A DNA stretch of 64,000 nucleotides. Origin: an uncultured Saprospiraceae bacterium. GTDB lineage: Bacteria > Bacteroidota > Bacteroidia > Chitinophagales > Saprospiraceae. Location: contig CALFBG010000003.1 of the NCBI GenBank assembly GCA_937951685.1, positions 1 to 64,000 of the forward strand, written 5' to 3'. This document shows positions 7,398 to 45,101 of this stretch, piece by piece. Both the position numbers and the translations under genes were made by a program. Each line of letters opens with the position of its first letter. Position 1 is the stretch's first letter. A model generated the notes under the pieces. It had not been told where the DNA came from and did no database searches. It saw nothing but the letters and a program-made list of their open reading frames with translations.

Positions 7398-9530
7398 ATG
7401 GCAAGAGATCTAAGATACACGAGAAATATTGGAATTGCTGCTCACATTGATGCTGGTAAAACGACCACCACTGAGCGTATCCTCTATTATACTGGTATAA
7501 GTCACAAAATTGGTGAGGTACACGATGGTGCCGCTACCATGGATTGGATGGAGCAGGAGCAAGAAAGAGGTATTACTATTACTTCAGCTGCAACGAAGAC
7601 GGAATGGAAGTGGAATGACACGACTTATCACGTTAATATTATTGATACTCCAGGTCACGTTGATTTTACCGTAGAGGTAGAGCGTTCCTTGAGAGTACTA
7701 GATGGTACAGTTGCTTTATTTTGCGCAGTTTCTGGTGTAGAGCCACAATCTGAAACCGTTTGGAGACAAGCAAATCGTTATAAAGTACCTCGTATTGGTT
7801 TCGTTAATAAAATGGACCGTTCTGGTGCAGATTTCTTACACGTAGTAAACGACGTTAGAGAGAAATTAGGTGCTAATGCAATTCCATTACAGATTCCAAT
7901 CGGCGCCGAAGAAACTTTCAAAGGTGTGGTTGATCTTTTAACGAATAAAGCTATCGTTTGGGATGATGATACGCAAGGAATGACCTTCCAAGAGATTCCA
8001 ATTCCTGATGATATCAAAGAAACTGTCGCGGAATACCGTGCAAAGTTGATTGAAGCAGTAGCAGAATATGATGACGAATTATTGGAGAAATTCTTCGATG
8101 ATCCAGATTCAATTACTTTAGAAGAAATGCAAGCAGCCATTCGCGCAGCAACGATAGATATGTCTATCTGTCCAATGATGTGTGGTTCTGCCTTCAAAAA
8201 TAAAGGGGTACAGGCATTATTAGATGCAGTTTGTACTTTCTTACCTTCTCCAATGGACGTCGAGGCGATCGAAGGAATCAATCCTAAAACGGATGAGGTA
8301 GAGACGAGAAAACCAAGTGTAGAGGAGCCATTCGCGGCTTTAGCATTTAAGATTGCTACAGACCCATTCGTAGGTCGTTTAGCTTTCTTTAGAGTATACT
8401 CTGGTGCGTTGGATGCTGGTTCTTACATCTTAAATACACGTTCTGATAAAAAAGAACGAATTTCACGTATCTATCAGATGCACGCAAATAAGCAGAATCC
8501 TATTAGCAGAGTAGAGGCAGGAGATATTGCAGCAGGTGTAGGTTTCAAAGACTTGAGAACAGGAGATACAATCTGTGATCTTGACCACCCAATCGTACTT
8601 GAAAGTATGACTTTCCCAGATCCAGTAATCGGTGTGGCAGTAGAGCCAAAGAGCCAAAAGGATATGGAGAAAATGGGAATGGCTTTAGCGAAGTTGTCTG
8701 AAGAAGATCCTACTTTTAGAGTTAAATACGACGAAGATACTGGTCAAACAGTTATCAGCGGTATGGGGGAATTACACCTTGAGATTATCGTTGATCGTAT
8801 GAGAAGAGAATTTAACGTAGAGTGTAATCAAGGTCAACCTCAAGTAAACTACAAAGAGGCACTTTTATCTACCGTCTCACACCGAGAAAAGCTCAAGAAG
8901 CAATCAGGGGGATCAGGTTTATTCGCAGATATCGAATTTGATTTGGGTCCTGCTGACGAAGAATTCTTAGAGAGCGAAGACTTCAAAAGTGGCAAGAAAC
9001 GACTTCAGTTCGTTAACAATATCACCGGAGGGTCAATTCCTAGAGAATTAATTCCACCGATTGAAAAGGGTTTCAACATGATGATGGACAACGGTGTATT
9101 AGCCGGTTATACCATCGACAGTATGAAAGTAAGAGTTTTTGATGGCTCTATTCACGCAGTGGATTCTAAGCCAATCGCATTCGAACTTTGTGCCAAAGAA
9201 GGCTTCAAGTCAGCGGCGGGTAAAGCTTCTCCTACTTTGTTGGAACCAATCATGAAGTTAGAAGTAGTTACACCGGAAGAATATACGGGTAGCGTAATCG
9301 GTGACCTTAACAGAAGAAGAGGTTTGCCAAAAGGACAAGAGCCACGTACTGGTGGTGCCATCGCTATCCAAGCAGATGTACCATTGTCTGAAATGTTCGG
9401 TTACGTAACTTCTCTAAGAACGATTACCTCTGGTAGAGCAAGTTCTACTATGGAATTTTCACACTACGCACCACCACCAAAAGGTATTGCGGAAGAAGTG
9501 ATCGAAAAAGCCAAAGGTATCGTATCGTAA
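7398..9530 (+). CDS. fusA: Translation elongation factor G
   Basis: 710 residues, full length. The GTPase catalyses ribosomal translocation. Visible motifs are the P-loop AHIDAGKT (residues 15-22), switch II DTPGH (83-87) and NKMD (137-140), followed by domains II-V with the conserved HYAPPPKG segment near the C-terminus. It lies 59 nt after rpsG. tuf does not follow, unlike the enterobacterial str operon. A 9-bp stem-loop (9546-9568) separates it from rpsJ. Confidence 0.98.
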
Positions 9531-9545
9531 AGTTGTAAATTATTT

Positions 9546-9568
9546 AGCGTGCTAAAATGTAGCACGCT
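9546..9568 (+). promoter_or_regulatory. Stem-loop between fusA and rpsJ
   Basis: AGCGTGCTA and TAGCACGCT form a perfect 9-bp stem with a 5-nt loop. No U-run follows, so it is not a standard terminator. It marks the junction between the str and S10 blocks and could be an RNA-processing or partial-termination site. Confidence 0.6.
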
Positions 9569-9605
9569 CAACAATACTTATTATTTGAAATATTATAAAT
9601 AGAGT

Positions 9606-9914
9606 ATGAATCAGAAAATCAGAATCAAGCTTCGTTCGTATGACCATAATTTAGTGGATAAATCTACGGAGAAGATTGTAAAGACAGTCCGCAACAGCGG
9701 CGCTGTGGTCACTGGTCCGATTCCGCTGCCTACGCAAAGAAAGATTTTTACCGTCCTGCGTTCACCGCATGTCAATAAAAAATCGCGTGAGCAGTTTCAA
9801 TTGAGGACTCATAAGCGATTGATAGAAATTTACACACCAACCCAAAAAACGGTTGATGCACTTTCCAAACTGGAATTGCCTAGTGGTGTAGATATTCAAG
9901 TCAAATTGACATAG
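9606..9914 (+). CDS. rpsJ: 30S ribosomal protein S10
   Basis: 102 residues. S10 is part of the 30S head and, as NusE, also joins antitermination complexes with NusB. The conserved [29 protein letters not shown] segment spans the ribosome-binding loop. It is the first gene of the S10 block. A 122-nt spacer follows before rplC, longer than most gaps in this operon, with only a weak inverted repeat in it. Confidence 0.98.
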
Positions 9915-10036
9915 TATAAATTATTATTTCTAAAAAAATTATTGAATTAGGAATTATACTTGTTGTTCTTTAGAACTTTCTAACGAATGCCATAGGTATA
10001 GGCTTACTCCTATTCATAATCTAAAATATAATAATC

Positions 10037-10660
10037 GTGAACGGTTTAATCGGTAAAAAAGTCGGTATGACCAGCATCTTCGACGAAGCTGGAAATAGTA
10101 TTGCTTGTACAGTTGTAGAAGCCGGTCCTTGTGTAGTTACGCAAGTAAAGACAGAAGATTCCGACGGATACACTGCCCTTCAACTCGGCTTTAGCGACGC
10201 TAAAGTCAAAAACACTTCTAAAGCACTTCTCGGACATTTTGACAAATCTGGTACGACACCTAAGAAAAAGGTGATTGAATTTCGCGACTTCGACGTCGTT
10301 GAAAAAGGACTTGGCGATCTAGTTACAGTGGAGGAAGTATTTGCTGAAGGTGATCTTGTAAATGCAGTAGGCACATCCAAAGGAAAAGGATTTCAGGGAG
10401 TTGTAAAACGTCACGGTTTCCGTGGTGTTAACGATGCAACTCACGGTCAACACAATCGACAACGTGCTCCAGGATCTATTGGGGCAGCATCTTATCCTGC
10501 GAAGGTTTTCAAGGGAATGAGAATGGCAGGTCGAACAGGTGGAAAAAGAATCAAGACGGCAAATCTTGAAATTCTTAAAATCTTTCCGGACAAAAATTTA
10601 ATCCTTGTTAAAGGAGCAATTCCTGGTCATAAGGGATCATTCGTAATCTTAGAAAAATAG
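10037..10660 (+). CDS. rplC: 50S ribosomal protein L3
   Basis: 207 residues, normal length. The protein reaches towards the peptidyl-transferase centre with a long loop, here around [15 protein letters not shown] and the following [10 protein letters not shown]. The start codon is GTG (10037); no in-frame ATG lies close by and [11 protein letters not shown] is the usual L3 start. Only 2 nt separate it from rplD. Confidence 0.98.
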
Positions 10661-10662
10661 CA

Positions 10663-11289
10663 ATGAAAGTTGAAGTTGTAAATATCGAAGGAAAAAAGAC
10701 AGGGAAATCTGTCGAATTACCTGACAGCGTCTTTGGTATTGAACCAAATGAACATGCTATCTATCTTGCGGTAAAGCAATATAACGCAGCACAACGTCAG
10801 GGTACGCACAAAGCGAAAGAGCGTGGCGAAATAGTAGGGTCAACCAGAAAAATCAAACGCCAAAAAGGTACAGGTACCGCGAGAGCAGGTAGTATCAAAA
10901 GTGGTTTGTTTAGAGGTGGGGGACGAATTTTTGGACCTCGTCCAAGAACCTATGATATCAAACTGAATAAAAAAGTTAAGCAATTAGCAAGAAAGTCGGC
11001 TTTATCTAGTAAAGCTACCGCTGGACAGTTAATCGTGATGGAAGACTTTACGTTTGATACACCACAAACTAAGCAGTATTTAAGTATCTTGCGCAACCTT
11101 GAGCTAGATCAAAAAAAGACACTGCTCGTAACAGGAGATCATGATAAGACACTTTATTTGTCTTGCCGTAACTTGAAAAAGTCGGATGTCTCACGTGCAC
11201 AAGATTTAAACGTTTATCAAATGCTGAACGCACAAACTCTGATTCTTTCGGAGGGCGCAATCGAGCAATTGACAGCATCTTTAGTATAA
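10663..11289 (+). CDS. rplD: 50S ribosomal protein L4
   Basis: 208 residues. L4 binds 23S rRNA early in assembly and its extended loop lines the exit tunnel, seen here as KRQKGTGTARAGSIKSG and GRIFGPRPRTY. In enterobacteria free L4 represses its own operon. No recognisable L4 leader target is visible here, so that control should not be assumed. It is tightly coupled to rplC (2-nt gap). Confidence 0.98.
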   Translation: MKVEVVNIEGKKTGKSVELPDSVFGIEPNEHAIYLAVKQYNAAQRQGTHKAKERGEIVGSTRKIKRQKGTGTARAGSIKSGLFRGGGRIFGPRPRTYDIKLNKKVKQLARKSALSSKATAGQLIVMEDFTFDTPQTKQYLSILRNLELDQKKTLLVTGDHDKTLYLSCRNLKKSDVSRAQDLNVYQMLNAQTLILSEGAIEQLTASLV

Positions 11290-11321
11290 TTTTTTAGCTA
11301 AGCATTGAGAAACCATAAGAC

Positions 11322-11618
11322 ATGGCAAAGACAATTCTAGTAAAGCCGATTATCACCGAAAAGGCAGAAGCACTTTCTGAAAATAGCAGCAAGTACAGCT
11401 TTGTGGTAAACAAAAAGGCTAACAAAGTAGAAATTAAAAAAGCAATTGAAGAAATGTATGGCGTCAATGTTGCCTCTGTCAACACTGCAATCATGCCTTC
11501 AAAAGCTAAAAGTAGAAACACAAAATCCGGAGTGTTAAAAGGAAAAATTTCTTCCTACAAAAAAGCAATCATTTCTCTAGCAGATGGAGAAGCAATTGAT
11601 TTCTTCGGAGATATTTAA
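11322..11618 (+). CDS. rplW: 50S ribosomal protein L23
   Basis: 98 residues. L23 sits at the tunnel exit and is the docking site for trigger factor and SRP. The N-terminal ILVKPIITEKAE and the VEIKKAIEEMYGVNV core are typical; the usual tunnel loop follows. It lies 32 nt after rplD and 60 nt before rplB. Confidence 0.97.
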   Translation: MAKTILVKPIITEKAEALSENSSKYSFVVNKKANKVEIKKAIEEMYGVNVASVNTAIMPSKAKSRNTKSGVLKGKISSYKKAIISLADGEAIDFFGDI

Positions 11619-11678
11619 TTTAGTCAACAAAATTGTAGCGGACTTTTTACACGAAGCCTTACAAACAACTAAATAATA

Positions 11679-12515
11679 ATGCCAGTAAAAAAATATAATC
11701 CAATTACGCCAGGTACTCGTTTTAGAGTAGGTAACGATTATTCTATCATTACTACCAACAAACCTGAGAAAAGCTTAGTTGCTCCGATTAAAAGAACAGG
11801 CGGTCGTAATCACGATGGTAAAATGACCATGCGTAATCGCGGTGGTGGGCACAAGCGAAAGTACAGAATCATTGACTTCAAAAGAGACAAAGATTTGGTT
11901 AAAGCAGAAGTGCTAACGATTGAATACGATCCAAACCGTACTGCTTTTATCGCTTTAGTTCAATATGAAGATGGAGAAAAAAGATATATCCTTTCTCCCG
12001 ATGGTTTGAAAGTAGGAGATAGCGTTGTTTCTGGAAAAGGCGTTGCGCCAAACCCAGGTAATTCACTCTTCTTCAGCGAAATTCCTTTAGGATCTGTTAT
12101 TCATGCTATTGAAATGCAACCCGGTAAAGGTGCAGCTTTGGCAAGAAGTGCAGGTACTTACGGTACACTAATGGGAAGAGAAGGAAAATATGCGATCGTT
12201 AAATTACCTTCTGGTGAAGTACGTCGTATCTTGATGACTTGTAAAGCAACCATCGGAACTACTTCAAACCCAGATCATGGTCTACAAGTACTCGGTAAAG
12301 CGGGAAGAAAAAGATGGTTAGGTCGTCGTCCAAGAGTAAGAGGGGTAGCAATGAACCCTGTTGATCACCCAATGGGTGGTGGTGAAGGTCGAGCTTCTGG
12401 TGGTCACCCACGTTCTCGAACTGGTGTTATGGCAAAAGGTCAGAAGACACGGAATAAGAAAAAACATTCAACTAAACTTATTGTTACGAAGAGAAAGACA
12501 AAATCTAAGAAATAA
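11679..12515 (+). CDS. rplB: 50S ribosomal protein L2
   Basis: 278 residues, full length. A primary 23S rRNA binder needed for subunit joining and peptidyl-transferase activity. The C-terminal block [15 protein letters not shown] includes the conserved His near the catalytic centre. A strongly basic C-terminal tail ([14 protein letters not shown] onwards) completes the protein. Spaced 21 nt before rpsS. Confidence 0.98.
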
Positions 12516-30602: not shown

Positions 30603-32234
30603 ATGAGTAGTAAAAAAGACCTCATTTTTTTCCGACGCGTCAGCATCGTATGTGCTGTTTTGCTGCTTGGAATTACCCTGATGAATGCTTTCATGGTGAC
30701 GGACATTCAAGATGTCGCATTACCTCGATTGTTTATTGCGATAGCTTTACTCGCGATGAATTACACTTCGTATCATAATGTATTTGTGCGGAGAAATTGT
30801 TCCGCTATTTTTTATTTTTTGTTGCTCCTTTATATTTCCTACGCCATTCATTTGAGTTTTCTCAATCACTTTCCGATTTATGATGTTTCGGCAACGATCA
30901 TTGTTGCCATCGCCTTAGCAGCGCTCTTCAAATCGAAACAACATTTACGGATATACTTGATCGTTGTTTACCTAGAGTTTTTTGGTCTTTTCTTTTTGTG
31001 TGAAAAGCCAATTGTAGAAACCAATTACCTATTTATGTCATTGACGCTTTTAATCGCTTTGGGCTATTTCGTTTTAGTAGGAAAGTTAGATGCGATTGCT
31101 TCGTTGACGAAAAGCAGATCTGCACTTTTAAAAAGTGAAATTCGTTTCAAAAATATTTTCGAATATTCCCCGATTGGTATTTTGCTCTTGGATAGTAACT
31201 TGAACGTCATGCAGGTAAATCCTACGGTGGTTAAAATCCTCGGTTATTCAGAAGCAGAATTGAAGTTGATGCATCGACTTAATTATATTGATGAACACGA
31301 TTTTCTACCCACCAATATTGTACTTGAAAAAATCAAAGGTGGCGCCAACAAACCGCTCGTTAAGGAGCAACGTTTTATTCGCAAAGACGGCACCAAGCGA
31401 TGGTTGCGATCTACTTTAGAAGTCATGGATGATTTACAGGAAGGGGTACCTTGTATTATTTCTATGGTTGAAGATATCTCTTTCGAGCAATCGGCAAGGA
31501 TGAAGCTGAACGAATATGCACAGAAATTAAAAAATCACAATGAGTCTTTGGAAGAGTTTAGTTACGTTGTCTCTCACGATTTGCAAGAGCCTTTGCGCAT
31601 GATCAAAAGTTATACGAGCTTAATTAAACGGCGCTATATCAAAGGACTAAATAATAAAGAAGCGGAGATTGATATTGATTACGTTTTGGATGGGGCAGAA
31701 AGAATGAGTTTGTTAATCAGAGATATGTTGAGTTATTCCAAGTGGAGTGCAAAACCTTTTACAACGGAAGAAGTAAGTTCAATGGCAGTCCTAACAGACG
31801 TGATTCAAAATCTAAGTATGTCGATGCAAGAAAAGGAAGCAGAAATTGTTTGTCATAATATGCCCGATCTAGCGACGAATCGAGTTTTACTCGGACAGAT
31901 TTTTCAGAATTTGGTGGGCAATGGCTTGAAGTACAGTCAAGAAGATCGAAGCCCAAGGTTAAAAGTTTACGGGGAAGAACGCGCGTACGATATTTTGTTT
32001 ACCATCAAGGATAATGGAATGGGCTTTGATCCTAAGGAGAAGCAAAGGATCTTTGGTTTATTTCAAAGAATTAATCCACACGGTGCCAACAAAGGTACAG
32101 GCATTGGATTAGCGATTTGTAAAAGAATCATCGAGCGACAAGGCGGACAAATTTGGGCGGATGCTACGCTTGGAGAAGGCTCAACATTTTACTTTACCTT
32201 ACCCAAAAGAAAATTATCCACGATGGAAATTTAA
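30603..32234 (+). CDS. Membrane PAS-domain sensor histidine kinase
   Basis: 543 residues. About six membrane helices fill residues 12-160. A PAS domain follows at about 180-300 (FKNIFEYSPIGILLLDSNLNVMQVN), then HisKA with the phospho-acceptor His325 (SYVVSHDLQEPLRM) and a HATPase domain with N-box QNLVGNGLKYS, DNGMGFD and GTGIGLAICKRI. HDLQEPLR is typical of the bacteriophytochrome/Bacteroidota kinase subgroup. No response regulator is adjacent, so it is an orphan. Its stop overlaps the stop of the convergent gene by 4 nt. Confidence 0.93.
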   Translation: MSSKKDLIFFRRVSIVCAVLLLGITLMNAFMVTDIQDVALPRLFIAIALLAMNYTSYHNVFVRRNCSAIFYFLLLLYISYAIHLSFLNHFPIYDVSATIIVAIALAALFKSKQHLRIYLIVVYLEFFGLFFLCEKPIVETNYLFMSLTLLIALGYFVLVGKLDAIASLTKSRSALLKSEIRFKNIFEYSPIGILLLDSNLNVMQVNPTVVKILGYSEAELKLMHRLNYIDEHDFLPTNIVLEKIKGGANKPLVKEQRFIRKDGTKRWLRSTLEVMDDLQEGVPCIISMVEDISFEQSARMKLNEYAQKLKNHNESLEEFSYVVSHDLQEPLRMIKSYTSLIKRRYIKGLNNKEAEIDIDYVLDGAERMSLLIRDMLSYSKWSAKPFTTEEVSSMAVLTDVIQNLSMSMQEKEAEIVCHNMPDLATNRVLLGQIFQNLVGNGLKYSQEDRSPRLKVYGEERAYDILFTIKDNGMGFDPKEKQRIFGLFQRINPHGANKGTGIGLAICKRIIERQGGQIWADATLGEGSTFYFTLPKRKLSTMEI

Positions 32235-32818
32235 AGCATTGAAAAAATTAAAAAAGCAAGGATCGCAATGGCAACGATAACGGCAATGGTGGTAAAGCTA
32301 GAATTACCACTGCGATATTCGTTAAAAAGCAATTCAACGACGTCTCGCCATTCTAAGTTTTTGACGACGGATTCTCTTCCCATCACAAAGTATCGTCGAT
32401 GACCTTTCCGAGATTGATCACCGTGTTTTTTAAGAATAAAGAAATCTTTCGATAAATAAGCAAGGTCGTATAGTTCACTTTTTGCAATAGAACCACCAGC
32501 AACACGTTCAATAATCATCGTATTAGACTTTTCGAAAATCCGCCAACTTCCTTTATAAATATCGCCGTCAATCGAGATTAGGTATTCATTGTCTTGGTTA
32601 AAAATGTGCAACATTGATTCGTGAAAATCTTCGGATTCTCTAATCTCTAACCAACGTGTTTCGAAATAATCTTTTTCTTCATATTCGTACAAATCGTCTC
32701 CCCAAGGTCGAATATTAGGAATGATAAGATCTAAATAATCCTCCATACTTTCTCGGAGCGGTAGTTCCAATTCGAAAGTACGAGATAATTTGTCTAACAT
32801 TTGATTCTCAATCGCCAT
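32231..32818 (-). CDS. Tail-anchored protein of unknown function
   Basis: 195 residues. No family recognised. The protein is acidic and soluble-looking over residues 1 to about 170 and ends with one membrane helix (about 173-195, TIAVIVAIAILAFLIFSML), so it is predicted to be C-terminally anchored with the body in the cytoplasm. A second possible start is Met7. It is convergent with the histidine kinase (4-nt stop overlap) and divergent from the TIR gene across 595 nt. A functional link with either is not shown. Confidence 0.7.
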   Translation of the reverse strand: MAIENQMLDKLSRTFELELPLRESMEDYLDLIIPNIRPWGDDLYEYEEKDYFETRWLEIRESEDFHESMLHIFNQDNEYLISIDGDIYKGSWRIFEKSNTMIIERVAGGSIAKSELYDLAYLSKDFFILKKHGDQSRKGHRRYFVMGRESVVKNLEWRDVVELLFNEYRSGNSSFTTIAVIVAIAILAFLIFSML

Positions 32819-33198
32819 AATTTACTAGTATTGGGTAACTCTAATATTCAAGCCCTTGTTTATATCAGATTAAAATAGGAAGAATTTCACTAAAGTTTAG
32901 TTAAAACTTTTATATTTTTAAACAACTGCTTACTTTACGAGTCAGCTGAGTAGCTTATACAGATCAAAGCTCATTCCATTTGTTGACTAATTCTAGCTGT
33001 GTACTCTAAGAACCAGCAGCTTTGCCAAGCAGGAATAATACCTTTCAGGTTGTTAAAATTACCTTCTTTTGCTTAAGTGTTGCTAACAGTGATGCCAATA
33101 ATGAGATTAATTATTACGTTTAATCCTTTCAAAATGGATCTTTTTGATCAATTAGCTACTTTAACCTCAGTTTCGTACGGAGCGCATATTTGACTTTA

Positions 33199-33317
33199 GA
33201 AGTTGTTTAATAATTCTAAAAACAGTTGAGAAAGGCTTTGCCTTCACGCAAGTAAGCAGGGCAGGTTTGAATAAAAAGATCAATTCGTAAACATTTTTGG
33301 AGTTTTTAAACAACTTC
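33199..33317. repeat. Dispersed inverted-repeat element, short copy (119 bp)
   Basis: The ends GAAGTTGTTTAA (33199-33210) and TTAAACAACTTC (33306-33317) are perfect inverted repeats. The flanks carry TTA on both sides, a possible 3-bp target duplication. The right part shares the 20-mer AAAAAGATCAATTCGTAAAC (33273-33292) and the following sequence up to the end with the element at 45102-45443. No coding capacity, so any mobility would need an enzyme supplied elsewhere. Confidence 0.7.
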
Positions 33318-33331
33318 TTACTTAAATTAGC

Positions 33332-33363
33332 TTGGCGTAAAGCCTCTAGCATCTTTAATTTTG
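33332..33363 (+). promoter_or_regulatory. Likely promoter of the TIR/WG-repeat gene
   Basis: TTG (33332-33334), 21 nt, then TAATTTTG (33356-33363) resembles the Bacteroidota consensus with a slightly long spacer. It lies 50 nt before the start codon and only 15 nt after the dispersed repeat element. Confidence 0.5.
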
Positions 33364-33413
33364 CTCAATCCTAAAAAAATAAACATCTTTTAAACGGATT
33401 TTAGTCTAACGAT

Positions 33414-36014
33414 ATGATTAATACGCCAGAAAATATCAACATCTTCATTGCCTACGCTCGCGAAGATAAGGCTTATTTAGAAGAACTGCGAGTACAGTTG
33501 AGTATCTTGGAGCGGATTAAACTCGTAGATAAGATTTGGTATGATGGTTTGATTCAGCCAGGCACCAATTGGGAAAATGAGATTTACCAAGCCTTAGAAA
33601 GTTCAGATATTATCTTACTGCTCGTTAGTGCTGATTTTATCGCTTCAGACTTTTGTTACGACAAAGAAATGAAACGTGCCATTGAGTTGAACGAAGCTGG
33701 GAAAGTTCGTACCATTCCCATTATCCTACGACCTTGCCTCTGGAAACGTACGCCCTTGAGTGTGCTGGAAGCTTTACCTGAAGGTGCCTTTCCCATCGCA
33801 AGTACGCATTGGGAAGATAAGGACGAACCGTATAAACTCGTAGTAGAAGCCATCGAAAAAATTATCCTAGATTTGAAGTCGAGTCACATCGAAATGCCCA
33901 AGGAACAAAATCAAGCTAGTTTCACGCAGTGGATAGAAGAAGCGGAAAGCTTGATGGCGCAGGAAGACTGGAATAAGGCACAATCCCAACTACGCGAAGC
34001 CTTGCATTTATACCAAAAAGGATTTCAGCCCAGCCTAGTCATTATCAATCAGAAAATTGAGCATTGCCAAGAGAAAGCGGAAGATCAAATGTACTATGAT
34101 CAAAACCTAACCCAAGGGAAAAAAGCCTACGAGGAAGGGGATTACAAAACGGCTTATCATTATTTTCAACAAGCCTTACATTTTAAACCGGATGCTACAG
34201 AAGCATTAAAATTAAAGCAAGCTTGCGAAATTAGCTTAGCCCCATTAGCGTCTTTGAAAACGAGGATTAAGGAAGAAAATGAACCCGCCATTACGATTGA
34301 AAAGCAAACCAAACCCGATCGGACTAAAATCTTTCAAATCAAGATTTTTGGGATGGAAATTTTTAAACTAATTATTGCCCTGTGCGCCGTTGGAGTCGTA
34401 GGAACGATGGCCATTAAAATGCTCACCGATTCAGACACGACGAGGTGGGTGGCTACACTAAATGAAGATAAAGGGAAAGTAGAAATTGTTGATGCAACGA
34501 AAATGAAAGACCCAAATGGTCCAATTCCAGAAACGGCAAAGATCGGAACGGATTTCGTTGAAACGAGGAGTATTAGCCAAGGTTTGATAGCGGTTAAAAA
34601 TACGATAGGAGAGTGGGGTTATATCAGTATCAAAGATGGTGCAGTGATGACGGTCGTTGACTTTAAATATGAAATCGCTTGGCCTCATAGTGAAAAAGAA
34701 AAATTAGCCTACGTGAAGCGCAATGGAAAATGTGGTTTTATCAATTTACAAGGAGAAGAAGTGATTCCTTTACAATACGCCGCAGCGGCTTCTTTCCAAG
34801 AGGGCTTGGCGATGGTGAAGAAAGGACAGCGCGATTATGCTTTTATCAATGCCAAAGGTACGGAAGTGATTGCTAATTTGGATTCGGTCATTACAACGCA
34901 ATTTGTGAATGGGGAAGCTTGGGTAATACGCGGACAAAAGAAAATGCTCATTAATAAAGAAGGAGTGTGTCTGAATGGTTGCGATACGGCGGCGCCACCC
35001 AATTTAGCGGCAACAACTCGTCGGAAGAAATTCCAAGAATTTATGGAAAAAGCACGTCGTTACGAAGCGGCAAAACGTTACGAGCAGGCTTTAGTGGTAT
35101 TGAAAGATGCAGAAAAGGTAGCAACGACCGACGCTGAGAAAACGGAAGTTGGCAATCAGATTGATTTGATTGGTAGAAAAATTAGTGCGATGGATCGTGC
35201 TAAAATTGAAGAACTGAGCAAGGAAGCAGCAGGATATCTCGAAATCGGAGATTATCGATCCGCAGCAAATACTTATCGGCAAGCCCTTGAAATTGAGCAG
35301 CTTGCTCGTTTAGAAGAACAACTAAAAATTTGTGAAGAATATCTTGCGAAAGAAGCCAAGATCACGACGCCGATTTATGCTTTTGAGCATCCGAGTAAAT
35401 TACTAGGAGTGAAAAGTCAAGAAGGGGAAGTACTATTGAGTCCACAATTCGAAAATGCCTTGTCGTACAGTAACGAAATGCTCGCCGTTGAAAAAAATAA
35501 CAAGTGGGGATTTGTAGATCTCAAAGGGAATATTGCGATCAAATTGCAGTACGATAAAGTCAGCCCATTCAATAGTGAAGGAAAGGCAGAAGCAATTTAC
35601 CAAGGTCGGAAAATGTTGATTGATCAGGATGGGAATTGTCTCAATTGTGAGCAAGAGGACCGAAGCGTGGAAGACTATACACAGTACTTTTTGAAAGAAG
35701 GGGAGAAGTTGCGATTGGATGCTTTAGATCTCATGGCAAAGAAAATGAAATTCAAAGTGAACCGAGCACGATATGCTAAAACGTGCAATTTTGGATTTGA
35801 TACTTTTGCGACCAAACAGTGCAAAATGCTAACGAAAAGACTGAAGAGTTTTGGGAAAATTACTTCTCGAGAAGTACTCAAAAAGAGTTTGGAAAAGTAC
35901 AAAGCAATTTGTGAAGCCGCAGTGCAAGAATACATGAGAAGAGGTGGGCTTAAATATGATCAACTGCTACTCGAAAAAGTATTGGGCGGGAAACGAATTA
36001 TTAAAATTAACTAA
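33414..36014 (+). CDS. TIR domain - TPR - transmembrane - WG-repeat protein
   Basis: 866 residues. Residues about 9-135 form a TIR domain of the bacterial TIR_2 type: FIAYAREDKAYLEEL, WYDGLIQPGTNWENEI, SADFIASDFCYDKEMKRAIE with the putative NADase Glu85, and VRTIPIILRPCLW. TPR-like helices follow (about 170-265). One membrane helix is at about 314-336. WG repeats (WGYISIKDG, CGFINLQGEEVI) span 375-520, then a TPR-like region 540-650, a further WG unit (KWGFVDLKG, about 695-740) and a helical C-terminus. The TIR would be cytoplasmic and the WG part periplasmic. TIR domains of this kind often cleave NAD+ or signal in immunity. The role here is unknown. Confidence 0.85.
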   Translation: MINTPENINIFIAYAREDKAYLEELRVQLSILERIKLVDKIWYDGLIQPGTNWENEIYQALESSDIILLLVSADFIASDFCYDKEMKRAIELNEAGKVRTIPIILRPCLWKRTPLSVLEALPEGAFPIASTHWEDKDEPYKLVVEAIEKIILDLKSSHIEMPKEQNQASFTQWIEEAESLMAQEDWNKAQSQLREALHLYQKGFQPSLVIINQKIEHCQEKAEDQMYYDQNLTQGKKAYEEGDYKTAYHYFQQALHFKPDATEALKLKQACEISLAPLASLKTRIKEENEPAITIEKQTKPDRTKIFQIKIFGMEIFKLIIALCAVGVVGTMAIKMLTDSDTTRWVATLNEDKGKVEIVDATKMKDPNGPIPETAKIGTDFVETRSISQGLIAVKNTIGEWGYISIKDGAVMTVVDFKYEIAWPHSEKEKLAYVKRNGKCGFINLQGEEVIPLQYAAAASFQEGLAMVKKGQRDYAFINAKGTEVIANLDSVITTQFVNGEAWVIRGQKKMLINKEGVCLNGCDTAAPPNLAATTRRKKFQEFMEKARRYEAAKRYEQALVVLKDAEKVATTDAEKTEVGNQIDLIGRKISAMDRAKIEELSKEAAGYLEIGDYRSAANTYRQALEIEQLARLEEQLKICEEYLAKEAKITTPIYAFEHPSKLLGVKSQEGEVLLSPQFENALSYSNEMLAVEKNNKWGFVDLKGNIAIKLQYDKVSPFNSEGKAEAIYQGRKMLIDQDGNCLNCEQEDRSVEDYTQYFLKEGEKLRLDALDLMAKKMKFKVNRARYAKTCNFGFDTFATKQCKMLTKRLKSFGKITSREVLKKSLEKYKAICEAAVQEYMRRGGLKYDQLLLEKVLGGKRIIKIN

Positions 36015-36537: not shown

Positions 36538-36858
36538 ATGATCTGGCGTTTTCGGAAAAGTTTGGAGGATTGTGTGAAAATCTATCTCGCAGCGTATGAT
36601 TTAGAGATTATTGCATTGGAACGAATCAAAGCTTTACCAGAAGGGCTTTTCGAATTAGATTGGAGTGCGGGAGATGAAGTGGAGAAGGATTATTTTTTTG
36701 TGATAACCTGTCGCAAAAAAGATTCACATGAGCTAACATTTTATTTGAAAATGACTTTGTTGTTAGGTCTTTTTGCAATTCGGTTTAAATCTTATGTGCT
36801 AGAAGCAAAGCGGATGAAACGCTTTGATATGACTAAGTATTTTGAGAAGCTAGACTAA
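36538..36858 (+). CDS. Small protein of unknown function
   Basis: 106 residues. No family recognised. The sequence is mixed helical with a basic N-terminus (MIWRFRKSLEDC), a hydrophobic stretch near residues 70-82 (MTLLLGLFAIRF, too short and mixed to be a sure membrane helix) and a basic C-terminus (KRMKRFDMTKYFEKL). A TAATTTTG box lies 30 nt before the ATG. Codon use resembles its neighbours. It is possibly a real lineage-specific gene. Confidence 0.55.
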   Translation: MIWRFRKSLEDCVKIYLAAYDLEIIALERIKALPEGLFELDWSAGDEVEKDYFFVITCRKKDSHELTFYLKMTLLLGLFAIRFKSYVLEAKRMKRFDMTKYFEKLD

Positions 36859-44665: not shown

Positions 44666-45093
44666 AACAGCGGACTATTCTATCGCGGTTTTATGTCTTC
44701 GGGCATAAAAATGAGGAAAGTCCGGACAACGTAGAGCACCACACCATTTAACGAATGGGGTTTTGCCTTCGGGCAAAATACAGCAAGTGTCGCAGAAAAT
44801 AACCGCCGCTTTCTCAGGAAGGAGGTAAGGGTGAAAACGTGTGGTAAGAGCACACGCTTTGGCTTGGTAACAAGTCGAGGGGATAAACCTTGTGGGTTGA
44901 AATGCCACGTACATCTCGATGCTGATTTTTTCAGCTTTAAGCTGCTCGTTTAATTAGATTACCCTCGTGGTAATCAGTCGGGAGGGGTAGGCAGATAGAC
45001 TTCGTTTGTGAAAACGAGGCTAGATAAATGATAGAACTTTGTAGCTCGTCTGACGAGCTGTGAAGACAGAATCCGGCTTATCGGTCCGCTGTT
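44666..45093 (+). ncRNA. rnpB: RNase P RNA (bacterial type A)
   Basis: The catalytic RNA of RNase P, which removes tRNA 5-prime leaders. Helix P1 forms between AACAGCGGAC (44666-44675) and GTCCGCTGTT (45084-45093). The universally conserved GAGGAAAGTCCGGA is at 44713-44726 and its partner ACAGAATCCGGCTTAT at 45066-45081. GGTAAGAGCAC is also present. Two stems are capped by CTTCGG. The T-run straight after P1 (45092-45099) can serve as terminator. Length about 428 nt, normal for the class. An open frame on the minus strand inside it (44675-44914) is not a gene. Confidence 0.95.
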
Positions 45094-45101
45094 TTTTTTA
45101 T

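Follow-up and report, generated by a model that had tools for sequence, protein, structure and literature searches.

A single-pass TIR protein with predicted periplasmic WG repeats as a possible envelope-to-cytoplasm receptor in Saprospiraceae

Domain organization of the TIR-TPR-TM-WG protein

The window, that is, the whole 64,000-nucleotide stretch of uncultured Saprospiraceae DNA analysed here, contains at 33414..36014 on the plus strand an ATG-initiated gene for an 866-aa TIR-TPR-TM-WG protein, whose domains were delineated with Pfam profiles and an AlphaFold2 model (mean pLDDT 83). The TIR domain (residues 9-157; 33438..33884) matched TIR_2 (PF13676) at residues 10-111 with an E value of 7e-15 and 56 bits against a curated cut-off of 28. 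Its VIA-align Z scores were 16.0 to the plant RPPT-TIR, 14.7 to the SPARTA TIR, 14.6 to AbTir, and 12.4 to Cat1. The putative catalytic Glu85 (33666..33668) is supported by alignments with orthologous and related TIR domains. TPR-like helices, predicted to be cytoplasmic, follow at residues 163-288 (33900..34277), as placed by TPR_2 (E value of 2e-6 over three stretches) and the model. A single transmembrane (TM) helix was then located at residues 316-334 (34359..34415; 315-338 in the model) by hydropathy and flanking charge. This segment was the only strong hydrophobic stretch of the protein (mean hydropathy 2.39), and the next-best segments fell within the TIR and WG folds.

C-terminal to the membrane helix, WG repeats modelled as strands occupy residues 345-521 (34446..34976), with WG_beta_rep (PF14903) matching three stretches at an E value of 4e-31 and 107 bits against a curated cut-off of 25.6. 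This part aligned with several propellers, including the designed Cake5 and the periplasmic BamB, at VIA-align Z scores of 8-9; since the match is only middling, we call it propeller-like. A second helical TPR-like part at residues 533-647 (35010..35354) was recognized from the model and TPR profile matches, and a second WG part, again of strands, at residues 654-736 (35373..35621) from the model and a WG-type alignment to the orthologues at L053 and L054. The C-terminal helical extension (residues 752-856; 35667..35981) was modelled with low confidence and is missing in two of the three orthologues.

A sequence-only reading of this DNA had proposed a TIR domain with a putative catalytic Glu85, joined to TPR helices, one membrane helix, and WG repeats around a second TPR-like part. 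The TIR_2 match and the invariance of Glu85 in the orthologues bear out the former; Pfam, hydropathy, and AlphaFold2 agree on the latter, and domain search and structure prediction placed the proposed residue ranges correctly to within approximately 30 residues.

Orthologues and the core locus

Full-length orthologues were found in three of the 298 Saprospiraceae genomes (G185, G105, and G101), with 39-41% overall identity to the window protein. The TIR-TPR-TM-WG order through the first WG part, the single TM helix, and Glu85 were kept in all three; therefore, the architecture of the window protein is not a product of chance. Cys440, Cys519, and the nearby Cys523 of the WG part were invariant in the four proteins and might form a periplasmic disulfide. 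The second WG part was present in G185 and G105 and absent from G101, in which the C-terminal third diverges from the others and the C terminus is helical. Among 385 genomes across the phylum, no full-length orthologue was detected outside Saprospiraceae, only separate TIR or WG matches.

The TIR gene is flanked by the gene for a 195-aa tail-anchored protein and a carotenoid hydroxylase gene in the window and in G185 and G105. On the opposite side of the TIR locus, the window and G185 carry eno, ftsB, and sucD; the G101 orthologue is found elsewhere, near sucC. The 195-aa protein, encoded divergently (32231..32818, minus strand) and without a Pfam match, was searched for in the family genomes; it occurs in 164 of 298, nearly always as a single copy, and its gene frequently adjoins sucD or a histidine kinase gene. 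A TIR gene was adjacent in only three of the 30 such loci that were read, namely those with the TIR orthologue. Moreover, the 195-aa gene adjoins crtR, the hydroxylase gene, with no TIR gene detected at L111, L114, and L119. The TIR gene of the window has therefore been inserted stably into the core locus eno-ftsB-sucD...crt and is kept there in two genera.

The 195-aa protein was also considered as a dedicated TIR partner and was rejected, being a core gene product whose gene also adjoins crtR where no TIR was detected. No partner gene, ligand, or downstream effector was found for the window protein, and a small ORF at 36538-36858 had no Pfam match. Upstream of the TIR gene, a gap of 595 nt (32819-33413) contains two similar A+T-rich stretches, near 32920 (aaacaactgcttacttt) and 33310 (aaacaacttcttactta). 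The window also encodes a bacterial RNase P class A RNA (Rfam RF00010) at 44667-45096 on the plus strand.

A class of single-pass TIR proteins with different C-terminal modules

Sixty family TIR loci were picked by similarity to the window TIR and combined with the orthologues and the other TIR genes of the window genome, giving 79 TIR proteins. Of these, 29, the window protein included, combine a TIR at the N terminus with exactly one TM helix after it; because the sample was picked by similarity to the window TIR, this fraction is not a family-wide rate. Membrane tethering of a TIR domain, which had been thought exceptional, is a common architecture within Saprospiraceae. On the TIR tree, 27 of 28 TM rows fell on one weakly supported side, intermixed with soluble forms, and TM helices have therefore probably been gained or lost several times.

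The module after the TM helix varies. An FGE-sulfatase domain (FGE/C-type-lectin fold) was present in ten proteins, and the other modules were GH18 (e.g., L125 7996-9687), TonB_C (e.g., L124 7681-9129), PG_binding_1, SH3_3, Fib_succ_major/Lcl_C, DUF4384, an L7/L12-like domain, and WG; the protein at L136 (2-1999) ends in PG_binding_1 plus FGE. Furthermore, two Ser/Thr kinase-TM-WG proteins were found (L087 1817-4423, minus strand; L089 1420-3231, plus strand), in which, by their domain content, the output is exchanged and the sensor type retained. The window protein shares the features of the class, with an N-terminal TIR, one TM helix, a Lys/Arg-rich TIR side, and a C-terminal module. The class is large and, as judged from one open-access library from which subscription papers may be missing, apparently undescribed; no paper on a TIR with WG repeats or on a Saprospira TIR was found there, and the matches listed for 'WG repeat' treat other subjects. 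In the available part of a TIR survey (PMC7075850), TM segments are named only for animal receptors.

One relative lies in a retroelement cassette. At L133 (G203; 8047-12279), an FGE-fold gene (9257-10540), whose product has a signal-peptide-like start and is exported, begins 34 bp after the end of a TIR-TM gene (8047-9222). Further downstream come genes for an HRDC-domain protein and for a reverse transcriptase (11148-12149). At the 3' end of the FGE-fold gene, a repeat of 130 bp (10414-10543) has its template at 12150-12279, and all 15 differences between the variable and template repeats lie at template adenines. Since changes solely at template adenines are the mark of a diversity-generating retroelement (DGR), the 3' end of the FGE-fold gene is identified from its sequence as the variable region of such an element. 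An FGE gene likewise closely follows a related TIR-TM gene at L123.

The window gene is not in a defence island

The TIR domain of the window protein matched the PADLOC ThsB model at 1.6e-36. Among the tested neighbours of the window gene, however, no credible PADLOC defence match was found; besides the TIR, the only protein with a match was the crtI desaturase, to a desaturase model. No ThsA match was found among these neighbours either, and a genome-wide search, confined to the STALD family, found no ThsA-type SLOG (STALD) domain in the window genome (94.6% complete). On the basis of these neighbours and the STALD search, membership in Thoeris was rejected. The window protein has the same general type of TIR domain as ThsB, a soluble protein encoded alongside ThsA, but adds a TM helix and a large ectodomain. 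A survey of neighbourhoods for defence genes, which the sequence-only reading had advised, gave 40 PADLOC families matched by the neighbours of TIR-TM genes versus 84 by those of soluble TIR genes; since these are counts of families rather than genes, from unequal spans (four versus two genes a side) and without a random control, the smaller number near TIR-TM genes is only suggestive.

These results bear on whether the protein is an anti-phage receptor, whose ectodomain would detect a phage on adsorption, or the phage's lysis activity, with the TIR then killing or arresting the cell through NAD+ loss. Such a role would fit the ThsB match and the pairing of a related TIR-TM gene with a DGR-diversified exported lectin-fold protein, comparable to the putative antigen sensors described elsewhere (PMC10907252). 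Nevertheless, we consider it unlikely, as the gene occupies a core locus in two genera, its tested neighbours have no credible defence matches, the genome yielded no STALD domain, and the TIR-TM neighbours matched fewer PADLOC families. The window gene is not in a defence island, and the defence setting raised earlier gives way to a conserved housekeeping locus.

The catalytic position

In the aligned TIR domains, the position of Glu85 was Glu in 26 of 29 and Gln in three. The invariance of Glu85 in the orthologues and the predominance of Glu suggest that the window TIR is likely an active NADase, and its fold matched AbTir, the SPARTA TIR, Cat1, and the plant RPP1 at Z scores of 12-16. The three Gln-type sequences are TIR-TM-WG proteins of genus g4 (L128 9405-11384, L131 6640-8511, and L134 6555-8444). 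Catalysis is therefore not universal in the class, which may include inactive, adaptor-like members. The middle domain of these g4 proteins also differs.

Alternatively, the TIR of the window protein could be a non-enzymatic scaffold that recruits the other TIR proteins of the cell, so that the receptor would serve as an adaptor hub in the manner of animal TLRs. This would be compatible with the TPR helices adjoining the TIR, the Gln-type relatives, and the window genome's five further TIR matches, but Glu85 is invariant in all four true orthologues, the window protein included, and the fold matches active NADases, so that we assign the scaffold a low probability.

Membrane topology

A single true TM helix in the middle of the protein requires one flank to be outside. 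Among the 29 single-pass proteins, 24 had an excess of Lys/Arg on the TIR side of the helix and one had a deficit (Wilcoxon p of 9e-6 over 29 mutually non-independent sequences); in the window protein itself the difference was small, with three versus two Lys/Arg within 15 residues of the helix. PG-binding, SH3, and TonB_C modules occur at the position of the WG part in relatives, and the TM-WG layout recurs in the kinase-TM-WG proteins. Therefore, charge and domain content predict a cytoplasmic TIR and a WG part beyond the inner membrane, as had been proposed earlier.

WG repeats can also be cytoplasmic, since soluble TIR-WG proteins without a TM helix occur in related genera (L076, L077, L090, L091, and L172). 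That all soluble parts of the window protein stay inside, tethered by a peripheral or re-entrant helix, would accord with the soluble TIR-TPR-WG homologues in genera g22, g58, and g76 but is very improbable, because a true mid-protein TM helix leaves one side out and both the charges and the envelope modules make that the C-terminal side.

Discussion

Envelope-to-cytoplasm signalling is the best-supported reading of this protein, and the defence reading is without support at the window locus. The signalling idea, put forward before, is well founded on the predicted TIR-inside, WG-outside layout of the window protein and its relatives, with the charges, the envelope modules, and the kinase-TM-WG proteins behind it. 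Specifically, we put at about even the chance that the window protein is a single-pass inner-membrane envelope-to-cytoplasm TIR receptor and one member of a Saprospiraceae class with exchangeable sensors. What was observed is the order of the domains, the single membrane helix, the bias in charge, the conservation, and the swapping of modules among relatives. The TIR and TPR helices would be cytoplasmic and residues of approximately 340-866 periplasmic. The WG propeller, the TPR-like arm, and the further WG blades may bind an envelope-reporting ligand or partner; binding would alter clustering across the membrane and bring TIR domains together, and this clustering would switch on NAD+ cleavage by Glu85, giving a nucleotide signal or NAD+ loss, and possibly an abortive response as raised earlier; the role served may be one in envelope stress or in defence.

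Several known systems share parts of this design. The window protein resembles AbTir, PdTIR, Cat1, and the SPARTA TIR in fold (Z scores of 10-15) and in its catalytic-type Glu; none of these NADases is known to be attached to a periplasmic sensor. Its predicted layout, with a cytoplasmic output, one TM helix, and a C-terminal outer sensor, is also that of PASTA-type receptor Ser/Thr kinases and of the kinase-TM-WG proteins, but the output is a TIR rather than a kinase. The DGR-diversified putative antigen sensors of multicellular bacteria (PMC10907252) have a lectin fold and are linked to several effectors, TIR among them, and the L133 TIR-TM gene lies in such a cassette; the window protein, in contrast, carries WG repeats, and its locus showed no reverse transcriptase nearby.

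Toll-like receptors have an N-terminal LRR ectodomain and a C-terminal TIR. The window protein shares with those of animals a ligand-type ectodomain, one TM helix, and a cytoplasmic TIR, as an analogy only; its TIR is N-terminal, the orientation is opposite, and a WG propeller and TPR take the place of the LRR. No evidence for common descent of the two architectures was found. More tentatively, the Saprospiraceae TIR-TM repertoire, with interchangeable and once retroelement-diversified sensors, could possibly be a pattern-recognition system converging on a Toll-like architecture, of which the window gene would be the core-locus WG-propeller branch; we hold this somewhat less probable than the receptor role itself.

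Work on bacterial TIR proteins has mostly dealt with soluble forms that sense phage infection or carry out the response to it. If the receptor reading is true, TIR domains in bacteria also serve recognition beyond the cytoplasm. The class would then supply receptors in which to study the transmembrane triggering of TIR clustering, as well as an experimentally testable example of convergence with animal Toll-like receptors.
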